From Candidatus Cloacimonadota bacterium (GTDB lineage: Bacteria; Cloacimonadota; Cloacimonadia; Cloacimonadales; TCS61): a DNA stretch of 15,723 bases. Shown here one piece after another: positions 752-14,844 of this stretch (the stretch's first letter is position 1; each line of letters begins with the position of its first letter). A program made the translations under genes and the position numbers. Below the pieces are notes generated by a model, which ran no database searches, was not told where the DNA came from, and saw nothing but the letters and a program-made list of their open reading frames with translations. Location: contig JAUVKM010000018.1 in the NCBI GenBank assembly GCA_030596265.1, forward strand, positions 1 through 15,723, given 5' to 3'.

Positions 752-782
752 AGCTCCGATATTATTCGGAGCTTTTTTTTTT
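752..782 (+). terminator. Rho-independent terminator
   Basis: A perfect 8-bp stem (752-759 with 766-773, arms AGCTCCGA and TCGGAGCT) with a 6-base loop runs straight into ten T residues. It ends the gene at 329 and isolates the promoter of the DUF134 gene downstream. Confidence 0.95.
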
Positions 783-802
783 AAATTTTTTAAAATAAAA
801 CT

Positions 803-830
803 TGCATTTTGCACATATGTTCAATATATT
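803..830 (+). promoter_or_regulatory. Putative sigma-70-type promoter of the DUF134 operon
   Basis: TTGCAT (803-808) and TATATT (825-830) are separated by 16 bases and lie 29 bases upstream of the DUF134 ATG. Both boxes are close to the consensus, and the site sits just after a terminator, where a new transcription unit should begin. The spacer is occupied by the palindrome listed separately. Inferred from sequence only. Confidence 0.6.
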
Positions 831-831
831 G
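809..831. promoter_or_regulatory. Candidate operator: palindromes inside the promoter spacer
   Basis: Bases 809-824 (TTGCACATATGTTCAA) match their own reverse complement at 14 of 16 positions, with a perfect ACATATGT core. The overlapping 822-831 (CAATATATTG) is a perfect 10-bp palindrome that covers the -10 box. A dimeric repressor bound here would block RNA polymerase. The obvious candidate is the DUF134 protein encoded immediately downstream, acting on itself; that link is inference. Confidence 0.45.
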
Positions 832-858
832 TCTCATGAAGTTGATAAAGGAGAATTT

Positions 859-1314
859 ATGCCTAGAAGGAAAATGCAAAGAATCGTGCACAGACCTCCA
901 CTCTATACGGAATTTAAGCCAGTTGGAGTTAGAAGACTATCATTAGATTCAATAGAACTTTCTATTGATGAATATGAAGCAATCCGGCTTGCAGACAACA
1001 TCGGCATGAATCATAATAATGCTGCCGATGAGATGGAAATATCCCGTTCCACTTTTTCACGACTGATTGAGAATGCCCGTAAGAAGATCGCTGAATTTAT
1101 TATAGAAGGCAAACATCTTCAAATTGATGGGGGGAATATACACTTCCGAAGTAATATAATAAAATGTAATTCTTGTGGGCATATGTTCAATACAAATTTT
1201 GAAAGCGAAATTATTAAATGTCCTTCTTGCGGTTCAGATAATTTATTAGATCTAGCAGGAGGATTCGGACATGGAAGATGTTGCAGTAATAATAATAAAG
1301 GAAGAAGGAGATAA
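859..1314 (+). CDS. DUF134 (UPF0251) helix-turn-helix regulator with zinc ribbon
   Basis: A predicted DNA-binding protein of 151 residues. I chose the ATG at 859 because an AAAGGAG site (848-853) precedes it and because family members begin MPRRKM or similar; the in-frame ATG at 802 lies inside the promoter. Residues 12-30 carry the family's PP...FKPVG segment. Residues 33-85 resemble sigma-70 region 4 (LSIDEYEAIRLAD, then the recognition part ISRSTFSRLIENARKKIAE). C103-x2-C106 and C121-x2-C124 form a zinc-ribbon-like knuckle, and C141-C142 sit in a Gly-rich tail. DUF134 genes are known to accompany NifX-type and ferredoxin-MinD genes in anaerobes, as here. It probably controls this locus; its signal could be metal or redox sensed by the cysteines, which is inference. 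Confidence 0.9.
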   Translation: MPRRKMQRIVHRPPLYTEFKPVGVRRLSLDSIELSIDEYEAIRLADNIGMNHNNAADEMEISRSTFSRLIENARKKIAEFIIEGKHLQIDGGNIHFRSNIIKCNSCGHMFNTNFESEIIKCPSCGSDNLLDLAGGFGHGRCCSNNNKGRRR

Positions 1315-1316
1315 TT

Positions 1317-1475
1317 ATGCCAAGTGGAGACAGAACAGGTCCAGATGGTAAAGGACCAAGAACAGGACGCGGATTAGGAAAATCTGCAGGGAACGATATG
1401 GGTCAAGGTAGAGGACAGAATCAAGGTCAAGGTCAAGGTCGAGGACAAGGGCAAGGACAGGGAAAAAACAGATAA
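1317..1475 (+). CDS. Short Gly/Gln-rich protein with DUF5320-type N-terminus
   Basis: A 52-residue gene easily missed for its size. Its ATG follows an AGGAG site (1306-1310) that lies in the end of the DUF134 gene, whose stop codon is 2 bases upstream. Residues 1-21 follow the pattern MPxGDRxGPxGxGPxTGRGLG, the same signature that opens the next gene. The C-terminal half (about residues 29-50) is a low-complexity run of Gly-Gln and Gly-Arg dipeptides. It has no cysteine and lacks the coiled coil found in its neighbour. The TAA at 1473-1475 is fused to the next gene's ribosome binding site (TAAGGAGG), so the two are probably coupled in translation. Codon-regular glycine repeats and good ribosome binding sites at both ends support a real gene. 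Function unknown. Confidence 0.85.
   Translation: MPSGDRTGPDGKGPRTGRGLGKSAGNDMGQGRGQNQGQGQGRGQGQGQGKNR
1401..1463 (+). repeat. Degenerate hexamer tandem repeat encoding Gly-Gln/Gly-Arg
   Basis: About ten copies of a 6-base unit close to GGTCAA (variants GGTAGA, GGACAG, GGTCGA, GGGCAA) in frame with the 52-residue gene. Such tracts change length by slippage without shifting the frame, so the tail length may vary between strains. Confidence 0.7.
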
Positions 1476-1485
1476 GGAGGTTATT

Positions 1486-1812
1486 ATGCCAAGAGGTGAC
1501 AGAAGAGGTCCAGAAGGAATGGGTCCAGTGACAGGTAGAGGTTTAGGATATTGTAATGGTTATGAAAATCCTGGATACACAAAAGGAGCTCCACGCGGTG
1601 GTGCTGGTTTTGGAAGAGGGTTCGGTCGTAGTTTTGGAAGAGGTTACGGACGAGGATTCGGAAATTGGGGGTTTTCAAATTATCCGAATTATCCAGTTCA
1701 ACAATATTCAGTAAAAGATGAAGAAAAGTATCTTAAATCAGAAATGGATGCACTGAAAGAAGAACTCAAAACAATGCAAGCACGACTCTCCGAATTGAAA
1801 AAGGACGAGTAA
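1486..1812 (+). CDS. DUF5320 family protein
   Basis: A 108-residue protein with the classical DUF5320 layout. Residues 1-24 carry the signature (MPRGDRRGPEGMGPVTGRGL, then GYCNG with the only cysteine, C23). Residues 32-62 are a Gly/Arg/Phe-rich low-complexity stretch with repeated GFGRGFGR units. Residues 76-106 form a charged, leucine-spaced coiled coil (EKYLKSEMDALKEELKTM). The ATG at 1486 has a full AAGGAGG site at 1474-1480. In anaerobic bacteria and archaea, DUF5320 genes are regularly found beside NifX-type and ferredoxin-MinD genes; their molecular role is not established. The coiled coil suggests oligomerisation, and the Gly/Arg tract a flexible or RNA-like or anionic-partner binding region (inference). 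Confidence 0.9.
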   Translation: MPRGDRRGPEGMGPVTGRGLGYCNGYENPGYTKGAPRGGAGFGRGFGRSFGRGYGRGFGNWGFSNYPNYPVQQYSVKDEEKYLKSEMDALKEELKTMQARLSELKKDE

Positions 1813-1820
1813 TGTGGAAT

Positions 1821-1860
1821 GCGACAGGGGTTGAATCTCTCCTCCTCTGTCGCTATTTTA
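1821..1860 (+). terminator. Intra-operon hairpin, possible attenuator or weak terminator
   Basis: A 10-bp stem with one G-U pair (1821-1830 with 1844-1853, core GCGACAG/CTGTCGC) encloses a 13-base loop. It is followed only by TATTTTA rather than a clean T run. It lies 8 bases after the DUF5320 stop and just before the GGGAGGTGA ribosome binding site of the next gene. It may reduce read-through or stabilise the upstream message. Confidence 0.5.
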
Positions 1861-1877
1861 TAGGGAGGTGACTAAAT

Positions 1878-2144
1878 ATGACAGAGGGTAGACATTACGG
1901 TGGTTTTAAATATCGGAATAAACGAAATCAAAGTCATCGTGGGAGAAATTCTTTTATTGGCACGGTGATAACGGCTATTGCAGGAACTGTTGTAAAAGAC
2001 CTAACCAGCGAAGACAGTAAAATCAAAAAGCTATTTAACAAAGTAATTCACCCAAAACAAATAGAAGAAAAACAGAATGAGAAGAAAGTTATTGATGCTG
2101 AGTTTTCGGTTGTAAATGAAGAAAACGCTGAAAAAATAAAATAG
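1878..2144 (+). CDS. Small unrecognised basic/acidic protein, 88 residues
   Basis: The start is supported by a strong GGGAGGTGA site (1863-1871). The N-terminal 25 residues are basic and Gly/Arg/Asn-rich (HYGGFKYRNKRNQSHRGR). Residues 26-39 are a short hydrophobic stretch (FIGTVITAIAGTVV), too short for a confident membrane span. Residues 45-60 contain a Lys-rich helix, and the tail carries VIDAEFSVVNEE, a short motif I have the impression recurs at the C-terminus of various small bacterial proteins. There are no cysteines. Its place between DUF5320 and NifX-type genes suggests a role in the same locus, but no function can be assigned. A peripheral membrane or filament-anchoring role is one possibility. 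Confidence 0.75.
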   Translation: MTEGRHYGGFKYRNKRNQSHRGRNSFIGTVITAIAGTVVKDLTSEDSKIKKLFNKVIHPKQIEEKQNEKKVIDAEFSVVNEENAEKIK

Positions 2145-2311
2145 AAAGAATTTTGAAAATATAAAAAAGAAAGTAAAATATGATAATGATCTATGGATGA
2201 ATATACAAAACAGTTGAGAATATTTGTTTTGTAATCTATGGATTTGTAAAAATCTGCCTACTAAGTTGTAGCATTAACGAAGGCTAGTAAGTTAAATAAA
2301 AGGAGAGACAG
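2145..2311 (+). promoter_or_regulatory. Leader region with small hairpins upstream of the first NifX-type gene
   Basis: A noncoding stretch of 167 bases. It holds an 8-bp hairpin (TACAAAAC 2204-2211 with GTTTTGTA 2226-2233), a second hairpin (GATTT 2241-2245, GTAA loop, AAATC 2250-2254, extendable by two G-U pairs), and an imperfect direct repeat CTACTAAGTT/CTAGTAAGTT at 2258-2267 and 2284-2293, 26 bases apart. A weak promoter match (TTGAGA 2214-2219, 17-base gap, TATGGA 2237-2242) overlaps the hairpins. No T-rich terminator tail is visible, so it may be a leader or a second promoter rather than an operon end. It matches no riboswitch I know. Confidence 0.35.
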
Positions 2312-2650
2312 ATGAACAAAAAAATCGCAATACCTACAGAAAGAGGAAATCTATGTGCTCATTTTGGACATTGTGAAAAATTTGCAATTTATGAAGTTGC
2401 AGACGACAAGATTATTAATGAAGAATTTGTATCACCACCACCACACGAACCGGGTTCACATCCCGCTTTTCTACGCGAACTCGGCTGTACAGCAATTATT
2501 GCCGGTGGAATGGGAAGCAGAGCGCAACAGCTTTTTGCACAAAATAATATTGAAGTTATCATCGGGTTGAGTTCAGATAATCTGAAAGGACTCGTGGAAA
2601 CTTACATTTCAGAGGGCTTAAAATCCGGAGACAATCTCTGCGATCACTAG
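2312..2650 (+). CDS. NifX/NifB-C-terminal-fold metallocluster protein, CDH-tail type
   Basis: A dinitrogenase iron-molybdenum cofactor biosynthesis domain protein (PF02579 type), 112 residues, essentially one domain. The RNase-H-like fold is evident from IAIPTERGN at the start, the HFGHC motif (residues 17-21), AIIAGGMGSRAQQLF (61-75) and IEVIIGL (80-86). Two features place it in the MTH1175-like subgroup: the PPPHEPG segment (42-48) and the C-terminal Cys110-Asp111-His112. C15, H17, H20, C21, H45, C110 and H112 are plausible metal or cluster ligands. An AAAAGGAGAG site precedes the ATG. It stands 50 bases before the stress-protein gene and upstream of the two ferredoxin-ATPases, the pattern of Orp-type loci. 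It should bind or carry a metal-sulfur cluster; which metal is unknown. Confidence 0.92.
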   Translation: MNKKIAIPTERGNLCAHFGHCEKFAIYEVADDKIINEEFVSPPPHEPGSHPAFLRELGCTAIIAGGMGSRAQQLFAQNNIEVIIGLSSDNLKGLVETYISEGLKSGDNLCDH

Positions 2651-2700
2651 GTGTGTTTTTGAATTGTGAAAAAGAATGATTTTTATTTGAGGAGGATATT

Positions 2701-3153
2701 ATGAAAAGGATTTTAGCAGCTATCGATTTTTTAGACTCTACAGACAAAGTAATTAATTATACAAAGAAAATGATTAAAGAATCAGGAGGGCAATTACTTA
2801 TAGTTCACTCTGAGACATTAGAATCATATCTTTCTACAATTACAACAGAATTTAATCAAACACCCTCGATGGAATTAATCAATGTTCATAAAAAACAAAT
2901 CGAGGATCGGTTGAACGAAATTCACAATAACTTAAAAAAGGATGGGATTGAGGCTGAATGTATTTTAATGGAAGGATCAACGGTCGATAATATATTAAAA
3001 GAAGCAGATATATTTAAGGCTGATCTTATTGTTATTGGTTCTCATAAACATGGAAAATTCCATAATCTTCTGTTTGGAAGTATTCATAAATCTCTAATTG
3101 CTCTCTCTCGAATACCGGTCTTAATTGTACCCTCTGAAGATAAGAAAAATTAA
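2701..3153 (+). CDS. Universal stress protein (UspA family)
   Basis: A 150-residue single Usp domain. Recognisable parts are MKRILAAIDF with Asp9 in the nucleotide-binding start, the helix ending in GIEAECILMEGSTVDNIL, the core strand ADLIVIGSHKHG (107-118), GS at 126-127 and the closing strand RIPVLIVP (137-144). The ATP-binding signature G-x2-G-x9-G-S/T is altered: the second glycine position (116) is Lys, while the first Gly and the GS remain, so ATP binding is uncertain. Residues 40-80 form a longer helical linker than in short Usp proteins. The ATG has a GAGGAGG site. It sits between a NifX-type gene and the two ATPases, suggesting co-expression under the same stress or growth condition. 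Confidence 0.92.
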   Translation: MKRILAAIDFLDSTDKVINYTKKMIKESGGQLLIVHSETLESYLSTITTEFNQTPSMELINVHKKQIEDRLNEIHNNLKKDGIEAECILMEGSTVDNILKEADIFKADLIVIGSHKHGKFHNLLFGSIHKSLIALSRIPVLIVPSEDKKN

Positions 3154-3195
3154 AACTATTATTTTATTAATAGAAAACAAGAAAAAGGAAAAAAT

Positions 3196-4062
3196 ATGAA
3201 AATAGCAATTGCCAGTGGAAAAGGTGGAACAGGAAAGACCACTGTTTCCACAAATCTGGCTTCTTTGTTGTCACAACAAGAAACCATTGTTCTTACTGAC
3301 CTTGATGTGGAAGAACCAAATTCAGGTTTATTCATTTCAGGAGAAATAGTTCATCAGGAAGATAAATTTAAAATGATCCCTCAGTGGGAAAAAGATGACT
3401 GTATTCTTTGCGGAAATTGCCAGAAAGTGTGTAATTTTAACGCTGTGATGAAACTGGGTGAAATGATAATGGTTTTCCCTGAATTGTGTCACGGATGTTA
3501 CGCCTGCAGTGAATTATGTCCCACAAAATCACTTCCTATGAAACCCAAAAAAATGGGAGAATTGAAACATTTCAAATCAGGTAATTTGGATTTCATAGAA
3601 AGCAAACTTATCATTGGTGAAGAACAGGCTGTACCGCTCATCAAGCAAACCTTGGATTATATAGATGGAAATTTCCCAACTGAAATGATTAAGATATTCG
3701 ATGCTCCTCCGGGAACTTCCTGTCCTGTAATTGAAGCTACAAAAGATGCTGATCTTATCTTGCTTGTTACAGAACCAACACCTTTCGGATTACACGATCT
3801 TAAATTGGCTGTGGAAACAATGAAAAAGTTGAAAAAGGATCTTGGAGTAATTATCAACAGATTTGGAATCGGTGATGCTAATGTTGAAAAATACTGTAAA
3901 GAAAACAGTATTCCCATAATTGCTAAAATCCCCAATATGAGAAAGATCGCAGAGATATATTCGGATGGAAATCTAATCTACACTAAAATCCCGGAAGTAA
4001 AAGCTCAACTTGAAAACATAATTTTATTCATTTCCAAATATCAGCAGGAGAGTGCATTATGA
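3196..4062 (+). CDS. MinD/Mrp-type ATPase with inserted 2[4Fe-4S] ferredoxin domain (first of pair)
   Basis: A 288-residue SIMIBI-class P-loop ATPase. The deviant Walker A GKGGTGKT is at 8-15 with the DLDVEEPN switch at 35-42. Residues about 66-112 are an inserted bacterial-type ferredoxin domain: C69-x2-C72-x2-C75-x3-C79 and C98-x2-C101-x2-C104-x3-C108 would hold two [4Fe-4S] clusters. DAPPGTSCP (169-177) follows, with Cys176 next to the catalytic site, then VTEPTPFGLHDL, typical of this ATPase group. In Desulfovibrio the homologous pair belongs to the Orange Protein complex, and related Mrp/Nbp35 ATPases carry iron-sulfur clusters. The role here is probably ATP-driven cluster loading or electron delivery to the NifX-fold neighbours. 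Its stop overlaps the next start by 4 bases (ATGA). Confidence 0.93.
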   Translation: MKIAIASGKGGTGKTTVSTNLASLLSQQETIVLTDLDVEEPNSGLFISGEIVHQEDKFKMIPQWEKDDCILCGNCQKVCNFNAVMKLGEMIMVFPELCHGCYACSELCPTKSLPMKPKKMGELKHFKSGNLDFIESKLIIGEEQAVPLIKQTLDYIDGNFPTEMIKIFDAPPGTSCPVIEATKDADLILLVTEPTPFGLHDLKLAVETMKKLKKDLGVIINRFGIGDANVEKYCKENSIPIIAKIPNMRKIAEIYSDGNLIYTKIPEVKAQLENIILFISKYQQESAL

Positions 4063-4928
4063 AAGAAATCGTAATAATTTCAGGGAAAGGCGGAACAGGA
4101 AAAACATCAATAACTGCTTCTTTTGCTTATCTTGGTGGAAAAGATATTATTGTAGCAGATTGTGATGTAGATGCTGCTGACATGCATCTTTTAATGCAGC
4201 CGGATTGGAAAAGATCTGAAGATTTTTATAGCGGTGTACTTGCTGAGATCGATCAGGAAAAATGTATTAAATGCGGAAAGTGTGCAGAGGTTTGTCGTTG
4301 GGATGCAATTCCTGTTATTGATAATGAATACGTCGTTCAACCTCTTGATTGTGAAGGTTGCGGATATTGTGCACTTGTATGCCCATCCGATGCCATAAGT
4401 ATGAATGAGCAAAATGTGGGAAAATGGTATTTATCCAACGTGAAAACAGGCACAAAAATGGTTCACGCAAAATTGGGGATCGGTGCAGAGAATTCCGGCA
4501 AATTAGTTGCAAAAGTTAAGAACGAGGCAAAAGCATTAGCAGAAATAGAAGGGAAGAACATTGTTATTGTAGATGGCTCTCCGGGAATTGGTTGCCCTGT
4601 TGTCTCGTCACTTTCCGGTGCCAGTTATGTTGTGCTGGTTACAGAACCTTCTGTCTCCGGTATCCACGATTTGAAACGAGTTTATGAACTTGTAAAAAAA
4701 TTCGGTATCAAAGCAGGATGCATCATAAATAAAGCAGATATCAATTCTAAAAAAACAAATGATATTCATAAATTTTTAGAAGATGAAAAAATTGATTTCA
4801 TTGCCAGCATTCCTTATGATGAAAACTTCACAAAAGCAATGACGGAGGGAAAAACGATTGTAGAATTTGATAATGGGAAGATAAAACAGATTTTAGAAGA
4901 TAGTTGGAAAAAGATAAAAGAGATATAG
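4059..4928 (+). CDS. MinD/Mrp-type ATPase with inserted 2[4Fe-4S] ferredoxin domain (second of pair)
   Basis: A 289-residue paralogue of the preceding ATPase. It has Walker A GKGGTGKT (9-16), the switch ADCDVDAADMHLL (33-45), a ferredoxin insertion with C69, C72, C75, C79 and C98, C101, C104, C108, and DGSPGIGCP (172-180) with Cys179. All eight cluster cysteines sit at exactly the same residue numbers as in the first protein, although the flanking sequence is clearly different. The ATGA overlap couples translation and fits 1:1 production of a heterodimer, as for the Desulfovibrio pair. Differences from the first copy include DGSPG in place of DAPPG and a longer insert region after the ferredoxin domain. 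No terminator follows; a structured leader comes next. Confidence 0.93.
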   Translation: MKEIVIISGKGGTGKTSITASFAYLGGKDIIVADCDVDAADMHLLMQPDWKRSEDFYSGVLAEIDQEKCIKCGKCAEVCRWDAIPVIDNEYVVQPLDCEGCGYCALVCPSDAISMNEQNVGKWYLSNVKTGTKMVHAKLGIGAENSGKLVAKVKNEAKALAEIEGKNIVIVDGSPGIGCPVVSSLSGASYVVLVTEPSVSGIHDLKRVYELVKKFGIKAGCIINKADINSKKTNDIHKFLEDEKIDFIASIPYDENFTKAMTEGKTIVEFDNGKIKQILEDSWKKIKEI

Positions 4929-4981
4929 CATCTAACAAAACCAACAATACGAACTAAAAAAAGATAAATTAATTTTGTATT

Positions 4982-5010
4982 TTGTTTGTATTGTCCGTTG
5001 CTGAAATATA
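4982..5010 (+). promoter_or_regulatory. Weak promoter candidate upstream of the second NifX-type gene
   Basis: TTGTTT (4982-4987) and AATATA (5005-5010) are 17 bases apart. Transcription from here would start near 5017, at the first of the two hairpins in the leader. The match is modest in AT-rich DNA, so this is tentative. Confidence 0.25.
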
Positions 5011-5014
5011 CGCA

Positions 5015-5070
5015 GGTTCAGTCTTGTAGATTGAATCGTAACTGTTCGGACGCATCAAAATGATATGTCC
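5015..5070 (+). promoter_or_regulatory. Two tandem hairpins in the leader of the second NifX-type gene
   Basis: Hairpin 1 pairs GGTTCAGTC (5015-5023) with GATTGAATC (5029-5037) over 9 bp including two G-U pairs, loop TTGTA. Hairpin 2 pairs GGACGCATC (5048-5056) with GATATGTCC (5062-5070) with one G-U and one mismatch, loop AAAAT. Both arms are 9 bases, both loops 5 bases, and the hairpins are 10 bases apart, about 30 bases before the start codon. The compensating G-U pairs suggest a real RNA structure or paired protein site. It matches no riboswitch class I know, including the molybdenum-cofactor type. Confidence 0.45.
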
Positions 5071-5098
5071 TACATTATAATAAAAAAGGAGAAAAAAT

Positions 5099-5431
5099 AT
5101 GAAAATCTTATTAACAGCAAAAGGAACAGAATGGGATTCTAAAATGGATCCAAGATTTGGCAGAACAGAGTTTTTCTTTATCTATAATGAAGAAACTGAA
5201 AAAGTACAGACTTATGATAACCGAGCAATTGCCAATGAAGCACATGGAGCCGGACCCAAAACAGCACAAAAAATGACAGAGTTTGGCGTGAATGTACTTA
5301 TAACAGGCAACGGACCTGGTGGAAATGCAGCAGCGGTTGTTACTCAAACAGGTACTAAGGTATATGTCGGAGCAGGTGAAATGACTGTAAAAGAAGCGTA
5401 TGATGCTTATAAAAATGGAGAATTGAAATAA
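5099..5431 (+). CDS. NifX-fold metallocluster protein (second copy)
   Basis: A 110-residue PF02579-type protein. It opens MKILLTAKG, has DPRFGR at 17-22 where the family's cluster-binding loop lies, FFFIYNEET in the second strand, GAGPKTAQKM in the helix, VNVLITGNGPGGNAAAVV in the glycine-rich turn and TKVYVGAGEMTVKEAYDAYKNGELK at the end, very typical of the subgroup. Many relatives have DPRFGRC; here the residue after Arg is Thr23 and the protein has no cysteine at all, so any cluster must be held by other groups or non-covalently. The Orange Protein cluster is also bound without cysteine ligands, as I recall. The ATG has an AAAAGGAG site. A long terminator-like stem follows the stop. Confidence 0.92.
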   Translation: MKILLTAKGTEWDSKMDPRFGRTEFFFIYNEETEKVQTYDNRAIANEAHGAGPKTAQKMTEFGVNVLITGNGPGGNAAAVVTQTGTKVYVGAGEMTVKEAYDAYKNGELK

Positions 5432-5443
5432 TTATTGAATTTC

Positions 5444-5482
5444 AAACTTCCGAAGTTTCCAATAACTTCGGAAGTTTTCCTT
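5444..5482 (+). terminator. Long perfect hairpin, terminator-like
   Basis: A perfect 14-bp stem (5444-5457 with 5464-5477, arms AAACTTCCGAAGTT and AACTTCGGAAGTTT) with a 6-base loop. The T run after it is short and interrupted (TTTTCCTT). It lies between the second and third NifX-type genes, so it may be a partial terminator that sets their ratio. Confidence 0.75.
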
Positions 5483-5485
5483 ATG

Positions 5486-5497
5486 AGCTTATAAGCT
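5486..5497. promoter_or_regulatory. Perfect 12-bp palindrome before the third NifX-type gene
   Basis: AGCTTATAAGCT equals its own reverse complement and ends 6 bases before the AGGAGA ribosome binding site at 5504-5509. It could be a repressor site or simply a fold adding to the upstream terminator. It does not resemble the DUF134 promoter palindrome. Confidence 0.35.
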
Positions 5498-5514
5498 TTT
5501 AATAGGAGAACAAA

Positions 5515-5907
5515 ATGCAAAAATTTAAAGTAGCATTTGCAACAGATAATGGTAAAACATTTATGGGTCGTCATTTTGGTGATGCAGAATATTATTATAT
5601 TTATGAAATTGATGATAAGAATGCTGAATTTATAAAAAAGATCAGCAACACTACGGAAGAAGAGGAAGATGTTCACGCAGATCCTAAAAAAGCTAAAGGT
5701 ATTAGTAATCTACTTCTTGAGGAAAATATTTCGGTGGTAGTATCAAAAATATTCGGACCTAATATTAAACGAATTAAGAAAAAATTTGTTTGTATCGTTG
5801 TAAAAGATGAGGAATTAGATGTAGGAATTCGCAAGGTCTGTGAAAGCATTGGTAAAATCTACGAAGAATGGGAAAAAGGTGAAGATAGAAAACATCTTTC
5901 ATTCTAA
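5515..5907 (+). CDS. NifX-fold metallocluster protein (third copy, divergent)
   Basis: A 130-residue protein whose first half is a clear PF02579-type match: FKVAFATDNG, then MGRHFGDAEYYYIYEI (17-32), the equivalent of the HFGH/DPRFGR cluster loop. An acidic insertion (TEEEEDVHAD) follows, with helix KKAKGISNLLLEENISVVVSKIFGPNIKRI (58-87), where the glycine-rich turn becomes SKIFGPN. The C-terminal extension (about 105-130) is highly charged and contains no cysteine; the only two cysteines are in KFVCIVV and VRKVCESIG-like segments further in. It differs from the other two copies in loop and tail, suggesting a distinct partner or cluster. AGGAGA precedes the ATG. It ends 7 bases before the truncated methyltransferase. 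Confidence 0.88.
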   Translation: MQKFKVAFATDNGKTFMGRHFGDAEYYYIYEIDDKNAEFIKKISNTTEEEEDVHADPKKAKGISNLLLEENISVVVSKIFGPNIKRIKKKFVCIVVKDEELDVGIRKVCESIGKIYEEWEKGEDRKHLSF

Positions 5908-5914
5908 ATGAAAT

Positions 5915-6229
5915 ATGATCAAATTATCAGATTGGGAAAGTAAAACAGGTGTTGATTTCCTGAAAAAGGTTGGAATTGCAGAAGGCAATAATATTCTCGA
6001 TTTTGGCTGTAACGATGGGAACTATACAATTCCTGCAGCAATTGTAACCGGTGAGAAGGGAAGTGTTTTTGCCATTGATGAAAATGAGAATTCCCTTAGA
6101 AAAATTGCTGAAAAAGCAAAATTGTCAGATATTAATAATATTAGAACTATTAATTCAAATGGTGATTTGAATTTTGATTTTGCTACTAATCCATGGTGTA
6201 CATACAGTAACAATTATGCCTGCTCCTAA
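5915..6229 (+). pseudogene. Truncated class I SAM-dependent methyltransferase
   Basis: A 104-residue reading frame that covers only the N-terminal half of a Rossmann methyltransferase. Motif I is clear (ILDFGCNDGNYTIPAA, residues 27-42), followed by FAIDENENSLRKI with the ribose-binding acidic position Asp55. Complete relatives run to about 180-200 residues, with a motif IV strand (typically D-x-V-L-x-x-D-x-L-H) right after the point where this one stops. After about 6180 the frame turns into sequence unlike any methyltransferase (ATNPWCTYSNNYAC) and ends. No alternative frame restores the missing half before the next gene. The ATG at 5915 has no good ribosome binding site and follows the previous stop by 7 bases. 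Probably a decayed remnant; a short functional protein is less likely. Confidence 0.72.
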
Positions 6230-7653: not shown

Positions 7654-7695
7654 AAAATGGAGAGAAACATAAATTTTAAACGAGAGGTAATTGAA

Positions 7696-7962
7696 ATGAT
7701 TACTAAGATAGAGCATCCTGCGATCAATTATTCACTCTATGCTCTCGGTATAATCAAATCTTATAAAATAGATGATAACAATGTGCATATTATTATGGCT
7801 TTACCGGCTTTGAATATTCCAATTCTGGATATGCTTATTCAAAGCATAAAGCAGCCGTTAGAAGCCATAAAAGCTAAAGTATATTTTGAAAAAACAGTAA
7901 TGACACAGAAAGAATTACAAAAATTTCTAACAATGGAACAAAGTGCCTGGAAAGGAATGTAA
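7696..7962 (+). CDS. DUF59/MIP18-like small protein lacking the usual cysteine
   Basis: An 88-residue protein. I chose the ATG at 7696, with GAGAGG at 7682-7687, over the in-frame ATG at 7657, which lies 3 bases after the pepC stop and has no site. The MIP18/DUF59 pattern is visible: IEHPAINYSLYALGIIKSYKI (5-25) corresponds to the helix and first strand of the family, and VHIIMALPALNIPILDMLIQSI (30-51) to the strand and turn. Typical SUF-associated DUF59 proteins have a T-x3-C-P turn with a cluster-binding Cys; here that turn is ALNIPI and the protein has no cysteine. The same domain forms the N-terminus of many Mrp ATPases, a possible link to the ferredoxin-ATPases upstream. A scaffold or adaptor role is inferred. 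Confidence 0.7.
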   Translation: MITKIEHPAINYSLYALGIIKSYKIDDNNVHIIMALPALNIPILDMLIQSIKQPLEAIKAKVYFEKTVMTQKELQKFLTMEQSAWKGM

Positions 7963-7999: not shown

Positions 8000-9226
8000 A
8001 TGAATCTTAGTTTAACAGAAAATATCTCAAAAGTTAATTTCAGAGCTTTCATCTGGCACGGAATTTTTCTCTCGCTTGCTTCCAATTTTATGGATGTTCA
8101 CACAATCATTCCTTCAATGCTGATAAAAGCTGGTGGCGGTGCCATTTTATTGGGAATTCTGACTACTATAATGGTTGGAGGATCTGGTTTGATGCAAATT
8201 GTTTTTGCAAGTTTTTTATCTAACAAAATGCATAAAAAAAAGCCACTTATAATAGCAATTAGTCTAAGAGTTATCACGCTGATATTATTAGCTCTTATTC
8301 TTTTCAGATCAAATGCGATCAGCAACAATTTACTTATTTTATCTATATTTATTCTAATTTCGATCTTCTCTTTCAGCGGCTCTTTTGCTAGTATTTCTTA
8401 TACTGATATTATTGGCAAGTCTATAATAGATAATAAACGCAAGCAGTTTTTCTCTTTAAAACAAGTAATCAGCAGTTTAGGAATTTTTGCTTCAGCCATT
8501 ATTGTACGTGCCCTGCTCAAAAGTTTTTCATATCCTAAGAATTATGGGATATTGCTTTTGATGGCAGGAATATTATTATTTGTCGCATCTTTAGGATTTT
8601 GGAAGATCAAGGAAATAAGTGTACAAGTAAAAAAGAAGAGAAGTTTTTTACAATTTTTTAAAATGATCCCGCAGGAAATATCACAAAATTCTAATCTCAA
8701 AAATTATCTCTTTATCATAAACCTTTTAGGTCTTGGTTTTAGTTTTATTCCTTTCATGATATTATTTGCTAAGAAAAATTTTGAATTAAGTGCCGGCTTA
8801 ATTGGCAATATTCTTCTATTTAAAATAATCGGAATGTTGATAACCAGCCTGATTCTTTATAAAAGATCCAAACAATTTGAATATAAGAAATTACTATATT
8901 TCAGTTTTGTATTTGGTGCATCTCTGCCAATTTTAAGCTTGATCTTTAGTAATAATTATTTTGTATATCAATTAATTTTTGTTCTTTCCGGAGTTTTTAT
9001 TACAGCTTTTGGAATTGCCAGAAATGGAATTTTAGTAGAAATATCTAGTAATGAAAATCGGGCAATTTATACAGGAATTTCCGGTGCTGGAAGTATTCTG
9101 CCGACAATTTTCCCACTTATTGCCGGTGTTTTAATATCTGTCTGGGGATATAATATAACATTTATTGTTGTCTCTTTAATCGTTTTCACAAGTTTTGTCT
9201 TTATAAGAAAATTAAATTGTAGATAA
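8000..9226 (+). CDS. Major facilitator superfamily transporter
   Basis: A 408-residue integral membrane protein with about 12 hydrophobic helices in two halves, split by a charged cytoplasmic loop near residues 200-225 (KIKEISVQVKKKRSFLQF). Basic residues dominate the short loops, e.g. SNKMHKKKPL after the second helix, the position of the MFS loop 2-3 motif, consistent with the positive-inside rule. The N-terminal helix begins FRAFIWHGIFLSLASNF, and the GISGAGSILPTIFPLIAGVLI segment near 356-376 resembles helix 11. No substrate-specific motif is recognised. The ATG lacks a clear ribosome binding site (only A-rich sequence upstream), so expression may be low or the start differs slightly. It lies 37 bases after the DUF59-like gene and 15 before a methyltransferase gene. 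Confidence 0.9.
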   Translation: MNLSLTENISKVNFRAFIWHGIFLSLASNFMDVHTIIPSMLIKAGGGAILLGILTTIMVGGSGLMQIVFASFLSNKMHKKKPLIIAISLRVITLILLALILFRSNAISNNLLILSIFILISIFSFSGSFASISYTDIIGKSIIDNKRKQFFSLKQVISSLGIFASAIIVRALLKSFSYPKNYGILLLMAGILLFVASLGFWKIKEISVQVKKKRSFLQFFKMIPQEISQNSNLKNYLFIINLLGLGFSFIPFMILFAKKNFELSAGLIGNILLFKIIGMLITSLILYKRSKQFEYKKLLYFSFVFGASLPILSLIFSNNYFVYQLIFVLSGVFITAFGIARNGILVEISSNENRAIYTGISGAGSILPTIFPLIAGVLISVWGYNITFIVVSLIVFTSFVFIRKLNCR

Positions 9227-9241: not shown

Positions 9242-9895
9242 ATGAGTAAGTTCTATCCTAATTCTGGTGTTGAAATTCAAGGCTTTGCAGCAAAATTTTA
9301 TGATAAAATAATGAACATTATGACGTTTGGCGGTTATAGCCTATTTATAAAAAAAGCGATCAAATCAATGGGGATTCTTCAAGATGATAAAATTCTTGAT
9401 TTTGGTTCAGGAACGGGCAGAAATGCACTTTTGATGAATGAGTATATTTCCGATAAAGGTGAAATTCTGGGATTGGAAATTTCTGATCTAATGATTGCTC
9501 AATTTAAAAACAAAACAGAAAAGTTCAAGAATATTAATATAATTAATCAGCGAATCGACCAACCTTTTAAGTTCGAAAAAAGATATGATAAAGTATTTAT
9601 CTCTTTCGTATTGCATGGCTTTCCTTTTGAAATTCAGAAAAATATAATCCAAAATGCTTTCAATGCTTTAAAAGAAGATGGTGAATTTATTATACTTGAT
9701 TTCAATGAATTTGTTACAGAGAAAACACCGCTTTATTTTAGAATTCCTTTCAAAATCATCGAATGCAAATACGCTTTTGAATATGTGGAACGAGATTGGA
9801 AACAAATACTATCTGAATTTGGTTTTAGAGATTTCCAAAAAAAATTATCTTTAGGAAAACACATCCGTTTATTAAAAGCAAAAAAAAGGATTTAA
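9242..9895 (+). CDS. Class I SAM-dependent methyltransferase
   Basis: A 217-residue UbiE/methyltransf-11-like enzyme, full length for the fold. Motif I is ILDFGSGTG (51-59), preceded by an N-terminal helix pair (AAKFYDKIMNIMTFGGY) as in quinone and small-molecule methyltransferases. LGLEISDLMIAQF holds the acidic ribose-binding residue, YDKVFISFVLHGFP is motif IV/post-IV, and FNALKEDGEFIILDFNEF is the typical strand 5 segment. The C-terminal third (VERDWKQILSEFGFRDFQKK...KHIRLLKAKK) is the conserved tail. The substrate cannot be read from sequence. An AGGAG site precedes the ATG. It is followed after 2 bases by the tRNA editing-domain gene, so the two are translated together. Confidence 0.9.
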   Translation: MSKFYPNSGVEIQGFAAKFYDKIMNIMTFGGYSLFIKKAIKSMGILQDDKILDFGSGTGRNALLMNEYISDKGEILGLEISDLMIAQFKNKTEKFKNINIINQRIDQPFKFEKRYDKVFISFVLHGFPFEIQKNIIQNAFNALKEDGEFIILDFNEFVTEKTPLYFRIPFKIIECKYAFEYVERDWKQILSEFGFRDFQKKLSLGKHIRLLKAKKRI

Positions 9896-9897
9896 AT

Positions 9898-10308
9898 ATG
9901 AAATTATTAATGATCTATGCTGACAAATTTGCCTATAATACCAACATCAAAAATTTGGAATCAGTAGAGAGTTACGAAGAGAATAAACAGATTGAAAATG
10001 TACTCGTTGGTTTTATTCAAGTAGAGCAAAAAGATGAAGAAGATATTGCCAAAGCGGAGACCAAAATGATAAAAAATCTGAAATGGGCAGCAAAGAAAAA
10101 TAAATCAAGTAATATAATTTTACATTCTTTTGCTCATTTATCGATGAGTAAAGCAGATGAGACAATAACCAAAGAGATGTTTGATCGAGCTGAGAAAAGA
10201 TTAAAAGATTCCGGTTACAAAGTTTTTCAAACTCCGTTCGGATATTTTCTCGATTTAGATATTCAAGCACCCGGAAAATCGTTAGCAAGGATTTTCAAGG
10301 AATTCTAA
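9898..10308 (+). CDS. Freestanding archaeal-type threonyl-tRNA synthetase editing domain
   Basis: A 136-residue protein matching the tRNA-Thr_ED domain (PF08915), a D-aminoacyl-tRNA-deacylase-like fold that in archaeal ThrRS removes serine from tRNA-Thr. Landmarks are the start MKLLMIYADKFAY, IENVLVGFIQVEQKDEED (32-49), NIILHSFAHLS (72-82; archaeal YPYAHLS) and GYKVFQTPFGYFLDLDI (106-122; archaeal APFGWYKxFxI). No synthetase catalytic core or anticodon domain is present, so it acts in trans or on another substrate. The lysine that follows the FGWY segment in archaeal domains is Leu118 here, which may change specificity or activity. It is sandwiched between a methyltransferase and a Sir2 gene, with stop-start spacing of zero bases to the latter. 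Confidence 0.87.
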   Translation: MKLLMIYADKFAYNTNIKNLESVESYEENKQIENVLVGFIQVEQKDEEDIAKAETKMIKNLKWAAKKNKSSNIILHSFAHLSMSKADETITKEMFDRAEKRLKDSGYKVFQTPFGYFLDLDIQAPGKSLARIFKEF

Positions 10309-11044: not shown

Positions 11045-11683
11045 ATGAAAATTACAATAATTTACGATAATACAACAAACAAACCCAATTTGATCGAGGA
11101 TTGGGGATGGTCGTGTTTTATTGAAACAGAAGAGAGGAATATTCTGTTTGATACAGGTGGAAACGGAAAAATACTGCTGGAGAATATGCTGAATCTGAAA
11201 ATTGATCCAGAATCAATTAATGATATTATCATTTCACATCCCGATTTTGATCATATCGGCGGACTTTCTACATTCTTAAATTTGAATCATAAAGCAATTG
11301 TTCATATACCGATTTCCTTCCGTGGAATTCGGTATCCGAATGACATAAAATATTATGACAAACCTACAGAAATTTACAAAAATATTTTCCTCACTGGTGA
11401 ATTAGATGAACGAGAACAATCTTTAGCAATTAAAACCGAGAAAGGTCTTGCACTCATAATCGGCTGCGGACATCCAGGAGTCAGAAATATTATTGATTTG
11501 GTCTCAAAATTCGGGAATGTCTATGCAATTATCGGCGGGTTACACGGTTTTAAGGAATTTGAAATTCTTGAAAATATCGAAAAAATCTGTCCTGCACATT
11601 GCACGAAATACAAGAATAAAATTAAAATACTACATCCTGAAAAATACATTGAAGGTGGTGTTGGAGAGGTATTTGAGTTTTAA
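11045..11683 (+). CDS. Metallo-beta-lactamase-fold hydrolase, RFAP-synthase-like subgroup
   Basis: A 212-residue single-domain enzyme resembling the MBL proteins annotated as 7,8-dihydropterin-6-yl-methyl-4-(ribofuranosyl)aminobenzene-phosphate synthase. The metal motif is H65-P-D67-F-D69-H70-IGGL, so the usual HxHxDH has Asp in the second position, as also seen in ComEC-type MBL domains. Other ligands are probably H143 (IIGCGHPGVRNII), H167 (IGGLHGF) and H185 (CPAHCT). NILFDTGGNG (32-41) is the strand before the metal site. It is shorter than many of this subgroup (about 250-280 residues), mainly between 85 and 125. Cytoplasmic; the true substrate is unknown and the RFAP label should not be taken as a function. 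A GGAGG site precedes it within the Sir2 end. Confidence 0.87.
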   Translation: MKITIIYDNTTNKPNLIEDWGWSCFIETEERNILFDTGGNGKILLENMLNLKIDPESINDIIISHPDFDHIGGLSTFLNLNHKAIVHIPISFRGIRYPNDIKYYDKPTEIYKNIFLTGELDEREQSLAIKTEKGLALIIGCGHPGVRNIIDLVSKFGNVYAIIGGLHGFKEFEILENIEKICPAHCTKYKNKIKILHPEKYIEGGVGEVFEF

Positions 11684-11684
11684 T

Positions 11685-12239
11685 ATGTATTCAAAAAAAG
11701 AACTTCAAAATTGTAAACTTTGCGAATTATTTAAAACTCGGTTAAATGCTTTGGCAGGTGAAGGCAACAAAGATGCAGCAATAATGCTGATAGCCCAAGC
11801 TCCGGGAGAATTGGAAGATAAAGAAAATAAAATGTTTGTGGGACCTTCAGGAAAAATGCTTGATAAATTGTTTAAATACTCTCAGATTTCCAGAGATGAA
11901 ATTTATATGACAAATTTGATAAAGTGTAATCTTCCACAAAACCGAAGGCCAAAACAAAGAGAGATAAAAACGTGTTCCAAATATTTGGAAATGGAAATAG
12001 CAGAAATTGCTCCGAAAATAATAGCTCCTCTTGGTTATTATGCTACCAAATATATGTTTGAAAAAAATGGATTGAAGAAGTTTTCCAAAAAAGAATTCCC
12101 TGAATTGATCGGGAAAATATTTGTGGCAGAAAATTATAAAATTTTTCCATTATCTCATCCTGCATCATTGCTTTATCATAATGAATTTACTGAAAGAACA
12201 TCTGAGAACTTTAGAAAACTAAGAAAACTAAAAGGTTGA
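11685..12239 (+). CDS. Iron-sulfur uracil-DNA glycosylase, family 4-like
   Basis: A 184-residue base-excision repair enzyme. I start it at the ATG at 11685, 1 base after the MBL stop; a longer in-frame opening to 11493 would overlap the MBL gene by 190 bases and adds nothing conserved. C10-x2-C13, C81 and C97 match the four [4Fe-4S] ligands of family 4 enzymes. Motif A is LIAQAPGELEDKENKMFVGP (35-54), where family members usually have GE rather than AQ before APG or GPG. MTNLIKCNLPQNRRP (75-89) and the uracil-binding HPASLL motif (158-163) follow. The Ala-Gln change in motif A could affect catalysis or place it in a related subfamily. It removes uracil arising from cytosine deamination. Confidence 0.9.
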   Translation: MYSKKELQNCKLCELFKTRLNALAGEGNKDAAIMLIAQAPGELEDKENKMFVGPSGKMLDKLFKYSQISRDEIYMTNLIKCNLPQNRRPKQREIKTCSKYLEMEIAEIAPKIIAPLGYYATKYMFEKNGLKKFSKKEFPELIGKIFVAENYKIFPLSHPASLLYHNEFTERTSENFRKLRKLKG

Positions 12240-12241
12240 AA

Positions 12242-13042
12242 ATGATTTCGAAAAATAATGATTTAAGTTTGATATATTTTTCACCTACAGGTGGAACACA
12301 AAAGGTTATGAGAGCAATTGCTGCGGGAATGGAATATGGAAATTTTCGTGACATAAACATAACAAAAAATAAAAATATTCCAAGGTTACAATTTAGTAAG
12401 AATGATAACGTGCTAATAGGAATTCCAGTTTATTCTGGTAGAATCCCGTTAGTAGCTTTACAGAGATTAAAAAAAATAGGAGGCAAAAATACTAATGCAA
12501 TTTTAGTAGTTGTATATGGAAATCGTCATTATGACGATGCGCTTTTAGAACTAAAATATCTGGTGATTGAGCTTGGATTTTCCCCGATTGCAGCAGCAGC
12601 TTTTATTGGAGTTCATTCGTTTAGTAGTTCCAAATATCCTATTGCAGAGGGAAGACCAAATGCAGAAGATCTGAAAATTGCCAAAGATTTTGGAAAGCAG
12701 ATTAGAACAAAACTTGAAGAAGACAAAAAAATTCAAGTTCCCGGAAATTATCCGTATAAAGAACTATCCAAGAAGCTAAAAGTTAAACCTAAAATTGATA
12801 TGGATCTTTGTGATTTCTGTGGATTGTGTGAAAATGTGTGTCCGGTAGATGCAATCTCAATATTGAAAAACAGTATAGATTTTGATGAAGATCTCTGTAT
12901 TTATTGTCATGCTTGCGTAAAAGTTTGTCCACAAAAAGCACTAACAATCGATGATGAAAAAATTATTGAATCCGCTAAAAGTTTACACGAAAAATGCAGA
13001 CAACCTAAAACTCCTGAATTTTTTATGAACATAACATTATAG
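12242..13042 (+). CDS. EFR1-type flavodoxin domain fused to 2[4Fe-4S] ferredoxin
   Basis: A 266-residue electron-transfer protein. The ATG at 12242 is preferred over a TTG two codons upstream; it is 2 bases past the glycosylase stop with AAAGG upstream. Residues 9-160 are a flavodoxin-like domain: LIYFSPTGGTQKV (10-22) is the FMN phosphate loop, VLIGIPVYSGRIP (57-69) and ILVVVYGNRHYDDAL (87-101) are flavin-binding loops. C190, C193, C196, C200 and C219, C222, C225, C229 bind two [4Fe-4S] clusters. This is the architecture of the EFR1 family of anaerobes. It should pass electrons one at a time between a flavin and low-potential clusters in the cytoplasm; the partner is unknown. A basic linker (KELSKKLKVKPKI) joins the domains. 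Confidence 0.93.
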   Translation: MISKNNDLSLIYFSPTGGTQKVMRAIAAGMEYGNFRDINITKNKNIPRLQFSKNDNVLIGIPVYSGRIPLVALQRLKKIGGKNTNAILVVVYGNRHYDDALLELKYLVIELGFSPIAAAAFIGVHSFSSSKYPIAEGRPNAEDLKIAKDFGKQIRTKLEEDKKIQVPGNYPYKELSKKLKVKPKIDMDLCDFCGLCENVCPVDAISILKNSIDFDEDLCIYCHACVKVCPQKALTIDDEKIIESAKSLHEKCRQPKTPEFFMNITL

Positions 13043-14001: not shown

Positions 14002-14844
14002 ATGAAAACTTATCTTGATTGTCTGCCTTGTTTTATGAATCAGGCATTACGAACAGGACGAATTGCTACAAATGATGAACCTAAAATAAAGAGGCTATTG
14101 GATGAAGTGGGAATGCTGATCCAGAAAATTCCAATGGAAAATACTCCACCAGAAACCGGAGCACTAATCTATAAGAAGGTCAGTGAAATTACAGGTAATC
14201 TTGATCCTTACAAAAAGATCAAAGAAAGAAATATCGAACATGCGCTGCATTTATATCCCGAACTAAAACAGAAGGTCAAGGCATCGGATGACAGTCTTCT
14301 AACAGCTATTCGGCTTGCCGTTGCAGGAAATGTGATCGATCTCGGAGTGAATAAAGAATTTAATATAGTAAAAGATGTAGAAACGATCTTACATCAAGAA
14401 TTTGCCATCTTTGATTACAAATTATTCAAGCAGGAATTGAATAAAGCAAAAGAAATTCTCTACATCGGAGACAATTCGGGAGAAGCAGTTTTTGATAAAA
14501 TTTTGATTGAACAATTAGGAAAACCTGTTATTTTCGCTGTTCGAGAAATTCCGGTAATAAACGATATTACACTTAAAGAAACTAAGCAGATTGGAATTGA
14601 TAAAGTTGCAAAAGTCATTTCTTCCGGTACAACTGCTCCCGGTACAATCCTTGATTTTTGTAATGATGAATTCCTAGAAATTTTTAATAATGCTGATATG
14701 ATAATCAGTAAAGGTCAGGGAAATTATGAAGGTTTATCCAATGTAAACAGATCAATATTTTTTCTTTTAAAAGCAAAATGTCCTGTTATTGCCAGAAATA
14801 TCGGTGTTAAAGAAAATGATATAATTTTGAAAGGAATGAAGTAA
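14002..14844 (+). CDS. DUF89 / ARMT1-like metal-dependent phosphatase
   Basis: A 280-residue stand-alone prokaryotic DUF89 protein (subfamily with the N-terminal CxxC). C7-x2-C10 in YLDCLPCF opens the protein. The phosphatase core shows GDNSGEAVFD (156-165), VREIPVINDIT (180-190) with Asp188, and the signature SKGQGNYEGLS (236-246). D157, N158 and D188 are the expected metal ligands. DUF89 proteins are described as damage-control phosphatases acting on phosphometabolites, including over-reactive sugar phosphates; the exact substrate for this subfamily is not known to me. GGAG at 13992-13995 supports the ATG. The stop is adjacent to the double-hairpin element at 14845, so no canonical terminator is needed to explain the gap. 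Confidence 0.92.
   Translation: MKTYLDCLPCFMNQALRTGRIATNDEPKIKRLLDEVGMLIQKIPMENTPPETGALIYKKVSEITGNLDPYKKIKERNIEHALHLYPELKQKVKASDDSLLTAIRLAVAGNVIDLGVNKEFNIVKDVETILHQEFAIFDYKLFKQELNKAKEILYIGDNSGEAVFDKILIEQLGKPVIFAVREIPVINDITLKETKQIGIDKVAKVISSGTTAPGTILDFCNDEFLEIFNNADMIISKGQGNYEGLSNVNRSIFFLLKAKCPVIARNIGVKENDIILKGMK

Follow-up and report, generated by a model that had tools for sequence, protein, structure and literature searches.

The stretch analysed here (the window) comprises 15,723 nucleotides of contig JAUVKM010000018.1 from the Candidatus Cloacimonadota assembly GCA_030596265.1. It carries ten co-directional genes on the forward strand at 859-5907, which were identified from a list of open reading frames (ORFs) and from Pfam matches. 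In 5' to 3' order they encode a DUF134 regulator, two DUF5320 proteins, an 88-amino-acid (aa) orphan protein, the NifX-type protein NifX1, a universal stress protein (USP), two ferredoxin-insert MinD-type ATPases, NifX2 and NifX3. The probable task of this gene group of anaerobes is to build, carry or store metal-sulfur clusters. Based on sequence comparison, DUF134 seems to switch the cluster genes via a 16-letter box. The predicted pairing of regulator and operator, with the box upstream of the DUF134 gene itself, is new here. The candidate control elements and the genes are as follows.

802-830, forward strand: candidate promoter, TTGCAT (802-807), 17 bases, TATATT (825-830), read by eye
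809-824, forward strand: DUF134 box TTGCACATATGTTCAA, candidate operator, 16/16 to a consensus that the window helped to define
859-1314, forward strand: DUF134 regulator, 151 aa, PF02001 at 3.5e-20 (run from 856)
1317-1475, forward strand: short DUF5320 protein, 52 aa, isoelectric point (pI) 11.7, 18 Gly, PF17253 at 1.7e-7
1486-1812, forward strand: long DUF5320 protein, 108 aa, PF17253 at 4.2e-30
1878-2144, forward strand: 88-aa orphan protein, without a Pfam match
2312-2650, forward strand: NifX1, 112 aa, PF02579 at 8.2e-20
2701-3153, forward strand: USP, PF00582 at 6.5e-19
3196-4062, forward strand: ATPase 1, ferredoxin-insert MinD type, CbiA/ParA and Fer4 (Pfam)
4059-4928, forward strand: ATPase 2, ferredoxin-insert MinD type, CbiA/ParA and Fer4 (Pfam)
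5099-5431, forward strand: NifX2, ORP/MTH1175-like, without cysteine, PF02579 at 6.8e-17
5515-5907, forward strand: NifX3, divergent NifX type, PF02579 at 2.1e-10

The reading frames of the two ATPases overlap by 4 bases. Every gene that had been named in an earlier, sequence-only reading of this DNA is present among the ORFs and Pfam matches; the USP gene at 2701-3153 and the orphan gene at 1878-2144 had been overlooked. That reading also let the DUF134 gene, and with it the stretch, begin at 803. The likely start is instead the ATG at 859, which lies behind AAAGGAGAA (read by eye).

An alignment of ATPase 1 was used to scan genomes and found at least 238 confirmed loci, of which the best 80 were compared. 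There is a gap in their identity to ATPase 1, with 15 loci at 55-71% and the remainder at 47% or less. These 15 loci (the close group) come from Calditrichota, Bacteroidota, Marinimicrobia, Spirochaetota and Campylobacterota. Genes within 5 kb of ATPase 1 were counted with our own profiles, the stand-alone DUF5320 profile being kept free of NifX domains. ATPase 2 was found in 78/80 loci, a NifX protein in 75/80, a stand-alone DUF5320 protein in 42/80, DUF134 in 27/80 and NifX3 in 4/80, all four of the last in the close group. The 15 close-group genomes were also searched as a whole: of 20 DUF134 matches above the Pfam cut-off, one of which (G009:C24) carries an internal stop, 18 have a PF02579 match no more than 5 kb away. 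The exceptions are in G011, which has no PF02579 match, and in G012, where the distance is about 8.5 kb. A PF02579 match is equally near to 14 of the 15 DUF5320 matches above the cut-off in these genomes; for the exception (G008) the distance is about 20 kb. A survey of DUF134 loci that was not conditioned on the ATPases, and that covered about 1.5 kb on each side, found a NifX (32), ATPase (15) or DUF5320 (9) neighbour in 40 of 58 loci.

The DUF134, NifX and DUF5320 families are also fused in all three pairings. DUF134 and PF02579 are joined in one chain in L026, L107, L140, L147 and L150, above both cut-offs, and in L123, where PF02579 is below its cut-off. PF02579 and DUF5320 are joined in L022, L031, L060, L072 and L076 (above both cut-offs; L065 is below), and DUF134 and DUF5320 in L151 (above both). 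ATPases 1 and 2 form a single chain in L012. Since the gene set is found again in several phyla, it is more than a chance neighbourhood, and the recurrence, the close genomic proximity and the fusions bear out the earlier suggestion that the genes form one system.

Comparison of the sequences upstream of DUF134 genes revealed a palindrome of 16 letters, WTGMRCATATGYKCAW, for which the site at 809-824 is the only exact match in the window. A second box-like site with one mismatch, at 1175-1190, is located within the zinc-ribbon codons of the DUF134 gene. In the 81 sequences from which the consensus itself was derived, 22 sites match in at least 15 of 16 positions and 21 of them adjoin a cluster gene; Markov sequence yields one or two such sites. 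The box is present at this level in 11 of the 12 close-group loci that have DUF134 beside the ATPases (exception L004), and it is missing at this level from L006 and L008; no match to DUF134 was found in the genomes of these two.

A held-out set consisted of 58 DUF134 loci from two phyla. From 96 matches above the cut-off 60 were taken (the best, one per genome), and L109 and L137 were left out of the counts, as their genomes had helped to find the consensus. With at least 14 of 16 matches and within 120 bases upstream, the box was found in 22/58 loci (25 sites in 7.0 kb) versus 3 sites in 174.9 kb elsewhere, and 60 permuted palindromes that were drawn gave at most two held-out loci (mean 0.17). 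At 13 of 16 or better, there were 30 loci and 14 sites elsewhere. Seventeen of the 25 held-out sites sit 35-47 bases before the DUF134 domain. That the palindrome recurs upstream of DUF134 genes supports the control by DUF134 that the sequence-only reading had proposed.

The box lies between promoter-like hexamers. TTGACA-like and TATAAT-like hexamers with a spacing of 16-18 bases frame it in 18 of 35 aligned box loci, compared with a mean of 1.7 and a maximum of 6 in 200 sets of shuffled flanks. Of these 35 loci, 16 come from the first 81 sequences, which have 22 sites, and 19 from the 22 held-out loci (L100, L130 and L149 omitted). A box in the promoter spacer suits a repressor.

Exact sites were then counted in 28 chosen whole genomes, of which 9 contain 13 such sites; the reversed pattern gave none. 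Seven of the 13 precede DUF134 genes (L082, L084, L085, L086, L088, L090 and L093). In L081 the site precedes DUF5320 and ATPase 1, with DUF134 on a different contig. The others are before a ferredoxin and a MinD ATPase (L083), before a zinc-ribbon protein and NifX3 (L089), before a transporter (L092), 238 bases upstream of a HypD-like hydrogenase maturation gene (L091, genome G020; by eye), and within an ORF, probably by chance (L087). An exact site is missing from 7 of the 13 close-group genomes with DUF134. Sites before NifX genes without DUF134 alongside were seen in L089, L170 and L182.

A wider pattern was found in 17 of 79 genomes with DUF134 above the cut-off and in 11 of 218 others (p = 6.5e-5, pooled), genome counts that are not independent of the held-out test, as the pattern was set after that result and applied to the same phyla. 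Its reversed form occurs in five genomes with DUF134 and three others. In one phylum alone, the difference has p = 2.4e-5. The genomes with DUF134 hold 21 sites of the wider pattern, of which 11 are within 65 bases upstream of DUF134, one is about 690 bases upstream, and two are before NifX genes away from DUF134 (L170 and L182).

The regulator is a member of the UPF0251/DUF134 family (PF02001). It consists of a helix-turn-helix, a zinc ribbon with CxxC/CxxC and a GGFGHGRCC tail. Its structure model has a mean confidence (pLDDT) of 84, with the tail (139-151) below 50, and its best PDB profile match is the deoxyribonucleoside regulator 7bhy (6.3e-6). GG[FY]GHGxCC follows the zinc ribbon in 7 of 10 aligned close-group DUF134 rows. 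In this alignment L009 and L010 are without the ribbon, and L012 has the ribbon without GG[FY]GHGxCC. In six relatives outside this group, the DUF134 domain is followed by a NifX or DUF5320 domain. The simplest reading of these architectures would be that the DNA-binding end is constant and the sensor end can be exchanged. A PAS-like protein is encoded next to the box and DUF134 in L176, L179 and L181 (by eye).

In the literature searched, which leaves subscription papers mostly outside its coverage, no target site or function of DUF134 and no account of this system was found, and no paper with the letters of the box was found. Passages of one paper report a possible transposon insertion in a UPF0251 gene of an adapted strain (PMC5886521). 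In those of another, one DUF134 and one DUF5320 protein appear only as carriers of predicted quadruplex-binding motifs (PMC7565180).

Phylogenetic analysis places the two ATPases apart from general cluster carriers. From 44 of the 81 sequences, 43 ATPase 1, 40 ATPase 2 and 14 Mrp-like rows entered the tree (97 in all). Those of Mrp type make up a clade of their own with 100/100 support, the ATPase 2 rows group together at 100/98 and the ATPase 1 rows at 96/83, and within each ATPase branch the close group is one clade (100/100 and 99/98). Both ATPases of the window are outside the Mrp/NBP35 clade, so that the grouping with general Mrp/Nbp35 carriers, which would have spoken against the sequence-only reading, is not seen. 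Pairs that lie near Pfam-confirmed sigma-54 activators (L006, L017, L038, L063 and L064) fall in the same two clades; such pairs, for example L064 (Desulfonatronospira), served as a proxy for Orp3/Orp4 of Desulfovibrio vulgaris. Organism-named relatives among the best 120 for ATPase 1 are nearly all Candidatus Cloacimonadota/Cloacimonetes, with one from Marinimicrobia.

The three NifX-type proteins have the loops that the sequence-only reading had written out, two of which turn out to be known signatures. NifX1 contains a CAHFGHCE loop, the stretch SPPPHEPGSHP and a C-terminal CDH. According to passages of PMC6345978, Di-Nase domains share CXHFGHCE, a proline stretch and CDH, which were proposed as [3Fe-4S] cluster ligands or as a contact stretch. 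NifX1 matches the NCBIfam MrpORP model at 4.2e-35 over positions 264-363 of 365 only, below the full-length cut-off. NifX2 has a DPRFGR loop in a chain with no cysteine, and it matches 1rdu (9.4e-15), the orange protein (ORP) 2wfb of gigas (1.4e-11) and 1eo1 (3.3e-9) in the PDB. Of these, 1eo1 and 1rdu, the MTH1175-like proteins, were entered only as hypothetical proteins.

NifX3, with the loop MGRHFGD, represents a family of its own, for which 517 matches, counting NifX3 itself, were obtained (the best 120 were listed). RHFGDA, EE, HADPxK and FVC are conserved in an alignment of 32. Its structure model is confident (pLDDT 90, pTM 0.85), and the best PDB profile match is NifX 9ian at 1.1e-3. 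Each of the three proteins may have a different cargo, as the sequence-only reading had suggested. The neighbours of NifX3 hint at sulfur delivery and metal export: in G007 the box is followed by NifX3 and then by a TusA-DsrE protein, and in L001 the NifX3 gene comes directly after one for a predicted heavy-metal exporter, ArsP_2, as does a weaker NifX3-like gene in L002. An ArsP_2 gene is also present in the window.

14917-15723, forward strand: ArsP_2 exporter, predicted to have 10 transmembrane helices, PF11449 at 3.2e-28, running off the window end

Its product is 57% identical to that of L002 and 59% to that of L001, and it is possibly a distant associate of the locus. Relatives of ArsP_2 occur within 5 kb of ATPase 1 in just 2/80 loci.

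The long DUF5320 protein has 22 Gly, 13 Phe, Trp or Tyr and 11 Arg or Lys in its first 80 aa, with a pI of 9.7. This cationic, glycine-rich and aromatic region is followed by a charged stretch that resembles a coiled coil by eye. Passages of PMC5524996 describe a similar tail in IssA of Pyrococcus furiosus, with 70 residues, 15 Gly, 14 aromatic and 7 cationic residues and a pI of 10.7, which was proposed to bind thioferrate. As DUF5320 also occurs C-terminal to NifX domains in fusion proteins, we read it as a detached IssA-type tail that could act in trans. By this analogy, the cationic tail of IssA is the better counterpart of the glycine-rich proteins; the sequence-only reading had not drawn this link. 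IssA responds to sulfur (passages of PMC5524996), and two IssA homologues of Methanococcus voltae increase on pyrite (passages of PMC8516115). A short glycine-rich protein with two CxxC pairs is encoded straight after the box in L089 (G007), and also between DUF5320 and ATPase 1 in L013 (3600-3797).

Other features in and around the cluster include three hairpins or inverted repeats.

752-773, forward strand: terminator-like hairpin with a T run, 8 pairs, 5 of them G-C, upstream of the cluster, parting it from the gene at 329-727
4939-4999: imperfect 20-base-pair (bp) inverted repeat between ATPase 2 and NifX2
5444-5477, forward strand: perfect 14-bp hairpin between NifX2 and NifX3, from the inverted-repeat search, not in the terminator scan

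The hairpin at 752-773 is also in the inverted-repeat list and is the sole terminator-like site of the scan; shuffled sequences average 2.7 such sites, so that the match alone is not significant. The one at 5444-5477 is a possible terminator or processing site.

USP and the orphan protein were considered as core parts and rejected, as relatives of either were found in none of the 80 related loci; by sequence they are lineage-specific additions. The orphan has 71 database matches, its own sequence included, and the three that name an organism are all of Cloacimonadota type (among them Tenebribacter, a member of this phylum). Several of the matched contigs have the same lengths as contigs with ATPase-1 relatives, which suggests that the two genes share them. 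Immediately downstream of the cluster, 5915-6229 encodes a 104-aa methyltransferase frame that is seemingly shortened (PF13847 matches the first part only), and related frames are near the cluster in L002, L012, L014, L015 and L031. Another methyltransferase lies side by side with a stand-alone archaeal-type threonyl-tRNA editing domain (PF08915) at 9242-10308, and relatives of this pair adjoin in reverse order near NifX3 in L002 (7158-8230). Further downstream, the window encodes a DUF59-like protein (7657-7962), a metallo-beta-lactamase (11045-11683), a flavodoxin-ferredoxin (12236-13042) and an ARMT1-like protein (14002-14844). Relatives within 5 kb of the ATPase were counted for the metallo-beta-lactamase (10/80 loci) and ARMT1 (14/80).

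The sequence-only reading had compared the locus with the Desulfovibrio Orp complex, which in D. vulgaris consists of Orp3, Orp4, Orp5, Orp8 and MrpORP (passages of PMC6345978 and PMC3897727). The likeness lies in the paired ferredoxin-MinD ATPases, in an ORP/Orp8-type NifX without cluster cysteines (NifX2, for which 1rdu scores above 2wfb) and in the Di-Nase motifs CXHFGHCE, proline stretch and CDH of NifX1. MrpORP fuses Mrp/NBP35 with Di-Nase, whereas here the Di-Nase-type domain stands alone, and neither a fused MrpORP nor a further Mrp-type protein was found among the genes of the window. The Orp operons are divergent and the genes of the cluster here are co-directional. Passages of PMC3897727 describe orp as controlled by sigma-54, DVU2106 and integration host factor (IHF), in place of which the window has DUF134 and a candidate sigma-70-type site; its genes gave no match to Sigma54_activat, and no sigma-54 promoter scan was made. 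The window also adds DUF5320, NifX3, USP and the orphan protein. Strict membership of the Orp complex fails on the fused MrpORP and sigma-54 control.

IssA of P. furiosus (passages of PMC5524996) likewise pairs a PF02579 domain with a sequence that is glycine-rich, aromatic and cationic, and the NifX-DUF5320 fusions in L022, L031, L060, L072 and L076 resemble its architecture. Unlike in IssA, where domain and tail are one chain, they are separate chains in the window. Moreover, IssA particles were purified without another protein, whereas the locus of the window has the ATPase pair. Passages on Archaeoglobus report that AF2378-AF2380 (NifX and CbiA domains) are highly expressed, and the authors suggest molybdenum cofactor synthesis (PMC3949148). 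MinD or NifX is not mentioned in passages of two methanogen proteome papers (PMC9431491 and PMC10846266).

We hold with moderate confidence that the locus is a self-regulated ORP/IssA-like metal-sulfide system in which repression by DUF134 replaces activation by sigma-54. Several results weigh against this. At 14 of 16 matches, 36 of the 58 held-out DUF134 loci are without the box, as are 28 at 13 of 16. The -35 hexamer of the window is weak (3/6), and the window fails both the framing scan and the general promoter scan. In the second phylum the wider pattern is found in 5/45 versus 5/103 genomes (p = 0.17), and 7 of the 21 sites in DUF134 genomes are without a recognised link or lie in a neighbourhood that was not inspected. 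The counts of the box and of co-occurrence ignore kinship among loci. A DUF5320 match is missing from 3 of the 15 close-group genomes, and the GG[FY]GHGxCC tail is not present in all of the DUF134 rows.

An unchanged Desulfovibrio Orp complex in another phylum, with its Mo-Cu-S protein and septum placement, seems unlikely to us. For it speak the position of the window's ATPase pair in the two clades shared with pairs near sigma-54 activators, the match of NifX2 to 2wfb and the Di-Nase motifs of NifX1. However, the window genes include neither a fused MrpORP nor a sigma-54 activator, and the five members that passages of PMC6345978 give for the complex do not include DUF5320, DUF134 or NifX3. 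The two modes of control may also exclude each other: DUF134 is in 29/80 loci (L030 was added by hand, its DUF134 part being cut) and sigma-54 activators, searched with the L006 protein, in 16/80, five of them Pfam-confirmed, and they share one locus (p = 0.007, with kinship ignored). A stricter motif search, which left 5 activator loci, gave p = 0.15 for exclusion. In L049, a FUR-family regulator (PF01475) with a glycine-rich N-terminus is encoded near the cluster (8105-8596), with related frames in L031, L034, L048 and L051; it is perhaps a third regulatory solution.

That an ArsR/SmtB-type metal repressor, and not DUF134, binds the palindrome seems improbable to us. The half-sites TGAAC..GTTCA resemble ArsR/SmtB operators, and two box-like sites in genomes without DUF134 adjoin ArsR-like genes (L154 and L173; seen by eye, without a systematic ArsR search), which also weighs against DUF134 as the binder. 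Against such a repressor speak the similar distance of 17 of the 25 held-out sites before DUF134 (-35 to -47), the presence of the box in 11 of the 12 close-group loci with DUF134 beside the ATPases and its absence, at 15 of 16 or better, from L006 and L008. General Fe-S maturation genes that are merely adjacent would fit the Mrp-like ATPases near the cluster in some loci and the DUF59-like gene in the window, but the 100/100 separation of the ATPase pair from Mrp, the co-localisation and the fusions make this very improbable. NifX-type carriers for the nitrogenase cofactor are scarcely credible. NifX3 has weak matches to TIGR02663 (nifX) and TIGR01290 (nifB), far under the cut-offs, and the nitrogenase-type family PF00148 was found in 2 of the 15 genomes with close ATPases and not in the other 13, some of the 15 being incomplete drafts. 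With PF00148 in so few of them, a role in nitrogen fixation common to these loci is unlikely, in line with the sequence-only reading.

For the preferred ORP/IssA-like system we infer the following mechanism. The ATPase pair, nearly always two proteins and one chain in L012, would assemble or load metal-sulfide species using ATP and electrons. The NifX-type proteins would carry them: NifX1 would correspond to the [3Fe-4S] Di-Nase domain of MrpORP and NifX2 to ORP, with NifX3 as a further type. DUF5320 could provide in trans the cationic, glycine-rich tail whose IssA counterpart is proposed to hold an anionic iron-sulfide polymer. By occupying the box (809-824) within the promoter spacer, DUF134 would repress the operon, and it may be released once its C-terminal sensor meets the metal-sulfide product or its metal. 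The sensor would be the zinc ribbon and GGFGHGxCC tail here; some relatives would instead use the NifX or DUF5320 domain fused to them. More tentatively, ORP/IssA-like metal-sulfide systems throughout bacteria could have DUF134 as their dedicated repressor, which would sense the product directly via exchangeable modules, and DUF5320 proteins could be detached IssA-type tails on which polymeric metal sulfide is kept for the NifX carriers.

Little is known of the ways in which anaerobes sense, store and ration clusters of iron sulfide and other metal sulfides. The box gives the orphan DUF134 family a predicted DNA site and suggests a regulon, and it links DUF5320 and NifX3, families without known function, to the same pathway. 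ORP and IssA have so far been studied separately, and it becomes possible to test whether they are forms of a single system.

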